The translations under genes and the position numbers were made by a program. DNA of 64,000 nt from Plicaturopsis crispa FD-325 SS-3 (taxonomy: Eukaryota; Basidiomycota; Agaricomycetes; Amylocorticiales; Amylocorticiaceae): contig KN832566.1 of the NCBI GenBank assembly GCA_000827205.1, positions 328,543 to 392,542 on the forward strand, written 5' to 3'. This document shows positions 1,983 through 22,225 of this stretch, in pieces; within the stretch, counting starts at the first letter, position 1, and every line of letters starts with the position of its first letter. Under the pieces are notes generated by a model. It was not told the origin of the DNA and searched no databases. It saw nothing but the letters and a program-made list of their open reading frames with translations.

Positions 1983-4858
1983 TCAAGCTCGGGGTGTTCC
2001 AGGTACCACGCACAACTCACCACGAGAGAACAATAATTCAACATCATATCCCCGTGTCATAAGGCACTCGATCATATACATATACGCCTCCGCCACAGTC
2101 TCCTCTGTAAATAAGACCCATTGATTAGCGTTCATTGGGAAAAAGTATCTTGAATATCATCAGTACTTACACAACGAGTGGCTTTTCCTGTTTAGCAGGG
2201 TCTCCGAGGGAGAAGTAGCCGATGTTGAAGTCCGTCTCCGCCAGAACGGTCCCATTCAGAGGATCGTCGGAGGCCTTCCTGACATCCCACAGCCGAATAC
2301 AGCCTATACCAGAGTGCTTCAGAGATAGTATGCGATGCAATGGAAGAAGAAGAACCCACCGTCACTTCCACCAGTAACGAGCCCAAGCCTCCGCCGGTCT
2401 CGCGTTTCTACCCACTGCGCTTCGACGACGCCGTATTCACCACTGCCTTCATTCTTGTGGAGGGAACGGGGATGGTTGAAGTAATGTACGACGCCCCTTG
2501 AGAGCATCCGCGAGTCGTAGACGTGAGCCGAGTTGTCGCTTCGTGCGAGGGCCAGGTATATGCCGTCCGGACTGTATTGGGCCGTAGTGACTTCGCCGGG
2601 TCCGTTGAAGGACACAAGCTGCTCAGTGCCGGTGCATGCTCCTATCCGGCGGCGGACATCGTACAGCTGCAATGTATTAGCGGCTTCGCCAGTGGTTAAA
2701 AGTGCTAGCTGATCGCCTACGAGATCGATGAGAAAACACAGAAGATTGCATAGTCAAGTAATGAGGCTTTACCTAGTGGATGCAGGGCCATGGCATCGCC
2801 AGCGTCCCCCGCGTCGAGTTCGAAGGACACTCGCCGTGTCGTCACGTCAAATGCTTGATGATACCCCGTGTGATCTGCTTCCTGAAGAGGCTCTGAGGAT
2901 GCAAAGAGCAGATCGGACGTCGACTCTACACCCCACTGCATCGCACCAACAGCCTGTTCTCGGTTCGGAGGCGCGACAGTCAGCGTATAGCTACGCTCGT
3001 TCATGATATCTCGAGTTTGTGAATATATGTATATCTTCCTGATAGCCAGAGAAGTGAGTATCGAACGATAGACACAGGGGAGGACATGACTTGCCCGTCC
3101 TTGCAAGTTACAGCTAGAGGCGACTCGTCGGAAACACCTGGCCTGTATTTGAGGTCGATGGGGACATGTTTATATTTGACTGGCGAGTGTCATCTCAGTA
3201 TTGACAGACCGCTATACTTTGATATGTTACCTTTTTTCAGTAGCGTGGGTGGCATGCGGATGCCGTCCTCGTCGAAGTTATTGTACTCCCACAGGCATAC
3301 ATGGCAGTCATCGCCCGATGACACCAATTTTGCAGGCCTGTTAGATTAGCGCGGATAGGCGTAATCACGAGCCGAACTCACCAGTGCGGTACAAACTGGA
3401 CGTCATTCACGGTATAATATTTAGTTTCAAAGAGTTCTTCGTCTCGGAACTCATCTGGCCCTTGCCCCTCCTCGAGGTACCGGACGCGGACCGATCGGGG
3501 TATGTTGGCAGAGTGGCCCTCAATGATGTTGACTGGGTGCATATTTCACACTGTCAGTGAGGGAGTTATTCGACAGAATGCATAAGCCTCACCATCGTTG
3601 CCGTGAATCGAGAACAACGAGCCTGGTTTATTATAAGGACTGGGAGCAGCTTGGCACAACGCTCAATAAGTTTATTTCGGTCAGACGGAAATGGACCTAC
3701 AAGGGCTGTCATCTTCGAAGTCTGCAAAGCCATCGACAGTGCAGCTACACGCAGCTATCAAGGGCCCGTTCTGAGCGATTTTATTGATAGCTAAGACGAT
3801 CCGTTAGCACCCCACTAAACGTAGATAGAGCCCGGCTCACAGCTTGAAGCAACATGGCGAAATGAGGATATTTGCTTGAGCATGTCATAGTGAAGATCAC
3901 GCGTTAAATTTCTTGCTTTAGGTCGAGGAAAACCAAGTCGTTCCTGCGCCAGCTATCAGTTATGGTATTAAAGGTTGATACACAATTACCTGTGTCCATA
4001 TCCACGATCCTGGAATGTCCAATGACACTGGGTAGTCAATCGGGCCTCCCAGAGGCTTCACGACAGACGGGTTGGGAGTAGATATTGAGGTGTTTTCGAG
4101 CATCGAAGTAATGTCGTCCGAGGATGTACTCCTCTCGGGAAGTGGTGTCCACTTTCACAAGTCAGCGGCGCGTGCAAAAGAGGAGGGACAGTGCTTACAA
4201 TGCTATCATTCTTGATATCGAATCCGGCATGTACTGTATCGTACTCATCGTCAGAGGAGGGCGTGAATCTTTTTCTGACTTTCTATTTCGAATTCTTAGC
4301 CCCGATTGTTAGCATATGTTCTGTTTAACGCACCTTCGCCGGAGGCGGCTGCGAGTCATTGTCACCGTCGGAGAGTTCAATGATTTGTGGATGGGGCTCT
4401 CGAAGAGGAGAGTCTGCATGCTGTGTCTGCCCGACGGATTGGTTCATTCTCACCGGGGGTTTCGAGGACTGCGCGGTCTTATGTTGCGCACGCTCGGAAT
4501 CAGAAGGTCGACGTTGGAGCAGGAACAAAAAGAAAGCATACCTTGTGGGTGCTTCGCCTCGGGATTATATTATGGTTGGAGGGACCGGCAACAGGACCTT
4601 GCGGTGCACGCTGGCCCTGCGTCTCCTGAGCCTATGCTGAGATTCAGTCTTCTAGGATCGGTCGAGATTAGGTTGAGATGGAGTACAGACTTTGGCCTTT
4701 TGTGCACGATGTAAAAACTGCCGTAGTTGGAGTTCTGAATCATGTACGCTGGCGGTGTCTACATCAATCGCCTCGGATGGCTTGCGCCCAGGCCTGTGCA
4801 CACGGAGTATCTGGATCTCTTGTTCGGGTTCGGCGTCGACGTCGACGACATCTGGCAT
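1983..4858 (-). CDS. WD40-repeat protein with disordered N terminus
   Basis: This is a multi-exon WD40 beta-propeller protein of unknown specific role. WD-type blades can be read in several exons: SSGDDCHVCLWEY near 3300, an INKIAQNGPLIAACSC block near 3750, YSPDGIYLALARSDNSAHVY near 2550 and a GCIRLWDVRK block near 2290. The N terminus is acidic and disordered (DVVDVDAEPEQE, IIELSDGDNDSQPPP). The open frame extends up to 5035, but its only in-frame ATG is at 4858, so I start there. The last exon ends at a TGA at 1983-1985 after ELLFSRGELCVVPGTPRA. At least eight introns are needed. It is divergent from the DUF202 gene with a 286-bp shared promoter. WD40 proteins act as scaffolds and may serve as ubiquitin-ligase adaptors, but nothing here fixes the partner. 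Confidence 0.75.
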
Positions 4859-21127: not shown

Positions 21128-21573
21128 TGCAAACGCTGGAAAGACCGATTTTAATGTGCGATTTTAACCGTGCAGGCCTTTGGGGTGACCGGGGAGAATA
21201 CTAACAGAAACGTCCTGCGGTTGATATACATTCAAGAAATCTCCGACTGGGTCCTTGGCGACCTGGAGGGTACTTGCTCCGACCCTGCGGACGTCATCTC
21301 CGCCCTCAGCGGAAGGCTCGAGTACGGACCTAAATCGCATCCACAATCAGCCTTTGCATAAAGTACATCAACGCGGCCGTGCACCAATGCGTTTGGTAGA
21401 CGTACGAAAAGCCGCGACGCTGCACCACGGTCATGGACGTGCATAGCGGCCTACCTATCCTCGAGCCCGTGACACGCAAATAAAAAAACAAAGGGCCTAA
21501 TGGGATAAACGGAATGGTATATATACCACTCCTGCTGCTAGGACGCACGAATCGCACAAAAGCAAAAACAATG
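21128..21573. other. Spacer between the M20 gene and the tRNA palindrome
   Basis: A 446-bp stretch with open frames on both strands but no recognisable motif. It may hold an upstream exon or the promoter of the M20 gene. Nothing else is supported. Confidence 0.4.
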
Positions 21574-21663
21574 GGCCTGACTGGGAATTGAACCCAGGAC
21601 CTCCTCGAGATGCGAATGTCGTATTCACCCTAACAAGGAATCATACTACTAGACCATCAGGCC
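21574..21663 (-). tRNA. tRNA-Pro (AGG), intron-containing
   Basis: A 90-nt tRNA gene on the minus strand, identical base for base to the plus-strand copy at 21946-22035. It folds as a standard cloverleaf: acceptor stem GGCCTGA/TCAGGCC, anticodon stem CCTTG/CGAGG with loop TTAGGG-T, and T arm CTGGG-TTCAATT-CCCAG. A 19-nt intron sits one base 3' of the AGG anticodon, the canonical place. A T5 run (complement of 21564-21568) follows as RNA polymerase III terminator. A-box and B-box (GGTTCAATTCC) are intact. Confidence 0.93.
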
Positions 21664-21945
21664 GTTGGAATGCATGCTGCGGTGGTCCACTCCAGGACAC
21701 GGACAAGCACTAGTAGTTGAGAGTAGAATGGAGAGGCTGCAACGAGACTGGAACACAGTGACCCAACTTTTTGGTCTCGTTTTTGCCGCGCCACTGTGGC
21801 GCGGCAAAAATGAAACCAGAAAACAAGTTTGGTCTTATTTGGTGTCGAGCCCCCGCCACTACGATTATCGACGACCAAGTATCCGCCCATTTCTCGACCG
21901 ACGCGGCCCCCCTCTCGAGTGGACCACCGCAGCATGCATTCCAAC

Positions 21946-22035
21946 GGCCTGATGGTCTAGTAGTATGATTCCTTGTTAGGGTGAATACGACATTCGCATC
22001 TCGAGGAGGTCCTGGGTTCAATTCCCAGTCAGGCC
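21946..22035 (+). tRNA. tRNA-Pro (AGG), intron-containing, second copy
   Basis: The plus-strand twin of the gene at 21574-21663, transcribed away from it. The anticodon AGG is at 21978-21980, the intron at 21982-22000 and the T5 terminator at 22041-22045. Internal promoter boxes are intact, so both copies look functional. The shared flanks show this is part of an inverted duplication. Confidence 0.93.
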
Positions 22036-22225
22036 CATTGTTTTTGGTTTTGTGCTATCGTCTAGCAGGGACCGTTCGTTTTATCCCCAGTCCTTTTGCG
22101 TGTGTTATCGCGAGTCGGTGATTTCGACATTACAGACAACATGGGTACTACCCAGGGTAGCATATCACAATCGTACAACATGCGTAGCACTTTCTGCGTG
22201 TATACATTCATTGTCAACGCGCCGC

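Follow-up and report, generated by a model that had tools for sequence, protein, structure and literature searches.

A head-to-head pair of predicted tRNA-Pro(AGG) genes and a dispersed palindromic repeat between them in Plicaturopsis crispa

The window, by which we mean the whole stretch of 64,000 nucleotides that was analysed, corresponds to C13:328543-392542 in the 33.2-Mb genome of Plicaturopsis crispa FD-325 SS-3, which comprises 49 contigs. It contains genes for Sec6, a DnaJ-X protein, three F-box-like proteins and a DUF6699 protein and, judged from these genes, is ordinary eukaryotic chromosomal DNA. Adjoining an RCC1-like gene are two tRNA genes of 91 nt each, copy 1 at 21573..21663 on the minus strand and copy 2 at 21946..22036 on the plus strand. 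In an Rfam scan, both scored 43.9 bits against RF00005 and thus exceeded the gathering score of 29. Each gene lies with its 5′ and 3′ flanks in one arm of an inverted repeat (left arm 21551..21695, minus strand; right arm 21914..22058, plus strand). The arms are 145 nt long, 98% complementary and separated by a 218-nt spacer. When the window was compared with itself by blastn, the arms matched each other at E = 5e-67, and besides them a hairpin within the spacer was the sole minus-strand self-match in the window (E <= 1e-5). As single-stranded DNA the locus folds far better than shuffled sequence (z = -34.3; 0/100 shuffles as good), as any inverted repeat of this kind does.

Default Rfam scans did not list the two genes, and ARAGORN gave their anticodon as Stop in one run and as Asn in another; the intron is handled badly by tRNA programs at these two genes. 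Read by hand, the anticodon arm is CCTTG/CGAGG with the loop TT-AGG-G, which identifies both copies as predicted tRNA-Pro(AGG) genes with an intron of about 19 nt. With boundaries likewise set by hand from the canonical tRNA intron position, one base downstream of the anticodon, the putative intron occupies 21609-21627 (minus strand) in copy 1 and 21982-22000 (plus strand) in copy 2. The T-rich 3′ flank ATTGTTTTTG is present downstream of both copies, and both genes appear to be intact.

A pattern covering tRNA-Pro from the D arm through the anticodon was searched genome-wide at a tolerance of 3 mismatches. Besides the two window genes, which fit it without mismatch, it matched a CGG-type site on C10 with 1 mismatch and, poorly, a site on C7 with 3 mismatches, four places in all; its reversed-pattern control gave 6 matches. 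A shorter AGG pattern at 0 mismatches was found only in the two window genes, with 0 matches for its control. One genome search at E <= 1 returned no third copy of the 145-nt arm. The number of other tRNA-Pro(AGG) genes, which the earlier note had proposed to count, came to none beyond the pair in the 33.2-Mb genome by exact match to the two patterns. Within the limits of both patterns, the window pair may be the sole tRNA-Pro(AGG) genes of the genome. By wobble rules, tRNA-Pro(AGG) would serve to decode CCU and CCC. If the pair is truly the only one, decoding of these codons would largely depend on a single inverted-repeat locus, and conversion from arm to arm would either shield this locus or propagate its errors.

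Of the 145 columns of the arms, 3 are mismatched: the 5′ flank has one, at its inner end, and the 3′ flank has two. The tRNA gene and its intron show 0 mismatches, and with strands minus and plus the genes do point away from each other, as had been claimed for the pair. Outside the exons, 70 of 73 arm columns are identical (about 96%; 54 non-tRNA columns and 19 putative intron bases). The inner edge of the arms is sharp, 29 identical nt next to the gene being followed by no clear homology; the outer edge is gradual, with mismatches at columns 133, 142 and 145-148 of 149.

The flanks of the pair were set against those of other tRNA loci in the genome. Scoring of 63 out of 681 candidates had given 53 matches, which did not include the window genes, and the 30 with the highest scores were used. 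Self-comparison of these 30 loci, each of about 3 kb, revealed an inverted copy of the locus's own tRNA in none of them, so the head-to-head inverted arrangement is uncommon in this set. A default Rfam scan found a single tRNA, never two, in each of 29 loci and no tRNA in L056; as the same setting also missed the window pair, the self-comparison is the better control. Flanks were compared for the 29 loci with a called tRNA, L056 being left out. Upstream, the members of three sets of identical tRNA genes (L032/L033/L034, L051/L052 and L057/L058) share 6-14 of 32 bases; the window pair shares 31 of 32, a figure that a generic promoter therefore fails to explain. The exception is a tRNA-Asp pair (L029/L030), which shares 29/32 upstream bases by way of a stretch also present in L037 and L039, suggesting that selection on a 5′ flank can occur in this genome. 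Downstream, the window pair agrees at 18/20 positions, L057/L058 and L029/L030 at 17/20 and the rest at 7-11/20, and the 3′ flank is the weaker evidence for a DNA-level duplication. Identical introns mean little here, because they are also found within L051/L052 and within L057/L058. The claim that the two genes share about 30 bp of 5′ flank and most of the 3′ flank is thus borne out, with 29 nt of exact match on the 5′ side. So is the preference for a DNA-level event over RNA-mediated insertion, which we reject as the source of the second tRNA because the shared 5′ flank is not part of the tRNA.

Between the arms lies a near-perfect palindrome (21768..21822) with 27-nt arms that are 89% complementary. 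It encloses a perfect 15-bp core with a 1-nt centre (21780..21810); an inverted repeat of 15 bp arose in 0/100 shuffles, even at 3 mismatches. The earlier note had described this hairpin correctly and placed it near the centre of the arms, which it is, albeit off axis: the hairpin is centred on 21795 and the arms on 21804.5, an offset of 9.5 nt. The palindrome is a copy of a repeat that occurs at 13 loci genome-wide, the window included, a number from which palindromes within masked stretches are absent because they could not be counted. Eight of the loci lie in a Copia-like LTR and two in a LINE-like pair (C11 and C18); the others are on C9, on C17 and in the window. Five imperfect relatives at 3 mismatches, identical to one another over the pattern, would raise the total to 18.

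The eight LTR copies of the palindrome are located about 100-150 nt from the 5′ end of a 416-bp LTR-like element with the ends TGACAGAAT...ATTCTGTCA, found on C6 (L015:1414-1829), C5, C7 (two copies), C14, C15, C23 and C41. Full LTRs of 416-418 bp are present at six of the eight loci; the one on C15 enters a masked stretch, and the one on C23 is partly missing. Among three LTR copies that lack adjoining internal sequence, two are flanked by a 5-bp target duplication (GTTTT on C41, ACTGA on C6) and one, on C14, is not. After three other LTR copies comes GGTTATGAGCCC, and these letters recur at that position on C23; we take them to be a Copia-type tRNA primer site, and the Copia label of the element is likewise our assumption. 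With TG...CA ends, the 5-bp target duplication and the presumed tRNA-type primer site, the element has the predicted hallmarks of a Copia-like LTR. Two of the imperfect relatives (L075 and L076) belong to a second LTR family, with 98.7% identity between them across 313 bp. Over 136 bp, L075 shows 81% identity to the first LTR, and its degraded hairpin aligns with the LTR hairpin.

The C11 and C18 copies (L002:4-1562, minus strand; L010:1504-3028, plus strand) show 79% identity across 900 bp and 70% across another 415 bp, and the far edge of the hairpin is where their homology ends. An endonuclease-like ORF was recognised by eye in this pair, Pfam returned 0 families on L010:2005-3054, and judged by eye the pair looks LINE-like. 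Beyond the hairpin, C11 gives a weak F-box match below the Pfam cut-off, and C18 has a zinc-knuckle-like ORF by eye. The C9 copy, the longest of the palindromes, spans 79 nt (L005:1488-1566; C9:1280820-1280898), is 91% self-complementary and sits in otherwise unmatched sequence; its palindromic flank extension scored 27, with 0/100 shuffles as good when base composition only was preserved. The window palindrome shares about 11 more bases with the LTR on one side (0/100 shuffles as good), a single value to be read with caution given that 14 of 66 flank pairs had <=10/100 shuffles as good where about 7 were expected. The shared bases suggest that the window palindrome is a stray piece of the LTR or of the same repeat.

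The surroundings of the four other non-LTR copies were compared with themselves over about 1.5 kb on each side, and apart from the palindrome no inverted arms appeared there. A search for hairpin-free copies of the sites, which covered the flanks of C9, C11 and C17, skipped very common words and scored the best candidates only, found none; the C9 and C17 flanks were unmatched, and the C11 flank matched C18 only. In Rfam, the hairpins of C9, C11, C41 and the window matched microRNA families only below the gathering scores, and exact scans of a viral collection gave 0 stretches for the hairpin and 0 for the tRNA. A tRNA gene at the C11 hairpin was considered and rejected: the sequence GGTTCGAGTCC there is B-box-like, yet a permissive Rfam scan found no tRNA at E <= 5. 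ARAGORN called no tRNA at this hairpin by default and, at a relaxed threshold, a tRNA-Gly with a 98-nt intron spanning it. Relaxed ARAGORN also produced six further doubtful calls (two in L002, one in L005, two in L009 and one in L008) beside the two real genes, and we regard all of these doubtful calls, the one at the hairpin included, as noise.

Given its presence at 13 loci, we reject the idea that the tRNA duplication produced the hairpin locally; as 12 other copies exist, it needs no local origin. By its distribution, the hairpin between the genes appears to be a separate dispersed palindromic repeat associated with Copia-like LTRs. A dispersed hairpin common to unlike retroelements and stray sites is the more unusual by-product of this analysis, and it could be traced through relatives.

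The remainder of the spacer consists of 72 nt between left arm and hairpin (21696..21767) and 91 nt between hairpin and right arm (21823..21913). These two spacers are not clearly homologous to each other: 939/1000 shuffles were as good in free local alignment, 84/1000 in global alignment, which is slightly better than chance, and 7/200 and 11/200 in anchored extension, which is marginal, so that the two may yet be homologous. Outside the arms, anchored extension detected a weak residual similarity between the outer left flank (21480..21550, minus strand) and the outer right flank (22059..22128, plus strand). The two are in register, and the extension was matched by 2/200 shuffles and, at 100 bp, by 1/300 random window pairs. 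In free local alignment of the outer flanks, 32, 6, 16, 35 and 532 per 1000 shuffles were as good at 60, 100, 150, 300 and 1000 bp, respectively. The outer similarity thus appears marginal, and is a hint that the palindrome is older and that gene conversion has homogenised it.

The reading that we prefer, and to which we give about an even chance of being correct, is a local duplication that is not very recent and whose arms were homogenised by conversion. A tRNA-Pro(AGG) gene with its flanks would have been duplicated at the DNA level in inverted, head-to-head orientation. With the conserved tRNA as an anchor, ectopic gene conversion would since have kept the arms alike over about 145 nt, and the spacers and outer flanks would meanwhile have drifted. 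If conversion has acted on an older inverted duplication, a 98% core surrounded by faint homology is the expected outcome. The palindromic repeat in the spacer would be separate from the duplication, which it may have preceded, followed or helped to bring about. Gene conversion, which the earlier note had offered as one way of keeping the arms alike, is in our view plausible, although short of proven. Taken as a whole, the locus is real and ordinary, most likely a local inverted tRNA duplication of a known type.

A substantial but smaller probability falls to a recent inverted duplication of the unit of about 145 bp by replication template switching, with breaks at the arm ends and without conversion. 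Such an event agrees with the few arm differences and with the sharp inner boundary, where 29 identical nt give way to no clear homology, sharp edges being equally expected if a recent duplication broke at precisely these points; moreover, passages of PMC10766183 and PMC11724301 describe how inverted copies can arise by template switching or fold-back. It would, however, require the weak in-register similarity of the outer flanks to be due to chance, and the outer edge of the arms is gradual rather than sharp.

We consider it improbable that fold-back (snap-back) synthesis at the central hairpin built the entire palindrome in a single event. The hairpin is indeed located between the arms, its C9 copy has extra palindromic flank (score 27), and passages of PMC7467729 describe fold-back inversions via single-strand hairpins in yeast. 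Against this, the axes of hairpin and arms differ, the same hairpin occurs at 12 other loci, and four other non-LTR copies are without inverted arms beyond the palindrome. A recent fold-back would also leave the spacers about as alike as the non-exon bases of the arms (70/73), which they are not. A recent fold-back at this hairpin thus seems unlikely, and the origin by recent fold-back replication put forward earlier is not supported; the arms may still stem from an old fold-back whose spacers have since decayed. The accompanying argument, that long palindromes are usually unstable so that keeping this one calls for an explanation, is weakened by the 218-nt spacer. According to parts of PMC10164571, rearrangement in normal cells declines as the distance separating inverted repeats grows, so survival of the repeat needs no special reason.

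It is very doubtful that the palindrome found in Copia-like LTRs, in the LINE-like element and at single-copy sites is a mobile unit of about 55-80 bp that seeds inverted duplications beside its landing sites, with the tRNA-Pro pair and the longer C9 palindrome as products, given that the other four non-LTR copies have no inverted arms beyond the palindrome. Equally remote is an assembly artefact or chimeric inverted repeat: head-to-head repeats are sometimes artefactual, but here the arms differ at three sites, the spacers differ, and the outer sides carry different sequence.

The locus can be compared with known systems, one of which extends to Cryptococcus, a basidiomycete. A head-to-head bias among antiparallel tRNA pairs is reported in parts of PMC2888827, for example for primates and Cryptococcus. 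Like the eukaryotic head-to-head homogeneous pairs treated there, the window genes are adjacent, of one type, on opposite strands and divergent; beyond what those parts describe, they also share non-tRNA flanks and have a dispersed palindrome between them. Concerted evolution, as passages of PMC5745555 present it, similarly concerns paralogous tRNA genes that are effectively identical, whereas our case comprises one genome only, with conversion inferred rather than observed. The fold-back and template-switch inverted duplications in the passages cited above (PMC7467729, PMC10766183, PMC11724301) resemble the locus in forming local inverted copies near a short inverted repeat; here, by contrast, the hairpin is dispersed and off axis, and the spacers are not clearly homologous. 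Bacterial REP/REPIN palindromes, as far as parts of PMC3116915 and PMC2817692 describe them, are also short and dispersed, with REPs typically numbering above 100 per genome (PMC2817692), whereas the present repeat belongs to a eukaryote and has 13 loci, 8 of which lie within an LTR. Titles and abstract openings of open papers, searched to a limited extent, contained no description of a tRNA pair with a retroelement hairpin between its genes, or of this locus.

Several further features were observed at the other tRNA loci. A second divergent tRNA pair with identical introns, anticodon CTT by eye, is located at C2:1729483-1729582 (minus strand) and C2:1741287-1741386 (plus strand), 11.7 kb apart and with unlike 5′ flanks (13/32). 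Four tRNA-Asp genes (L029, L030, L037 and L039) are immediately preceded by a conserved stretch of about 36 nt, which resembles an extra 5′ tRNA half and contains an A-box-like motif, TRGYNNARNNG. On C14, inverted repeats of 76-83% identity (L037:316-780 and 2414-2845) lie about 0.7-1.3 kb on each side of a tRNA-Asp gene. On C5, a Copia-like LTR (L035:1976-2250) starts about 395 bp upstream of a tRNA gene identified by eye as tRNA-Gly(TCC), and the DNA beyond it is masked. Finally, identical 461-nt direct repeats on C1 (L043:1806-2266 and 2626-3086), whose starts are 820 bp apart, lie beside a tRNA gene, and the second of them runs to the end of the locus.
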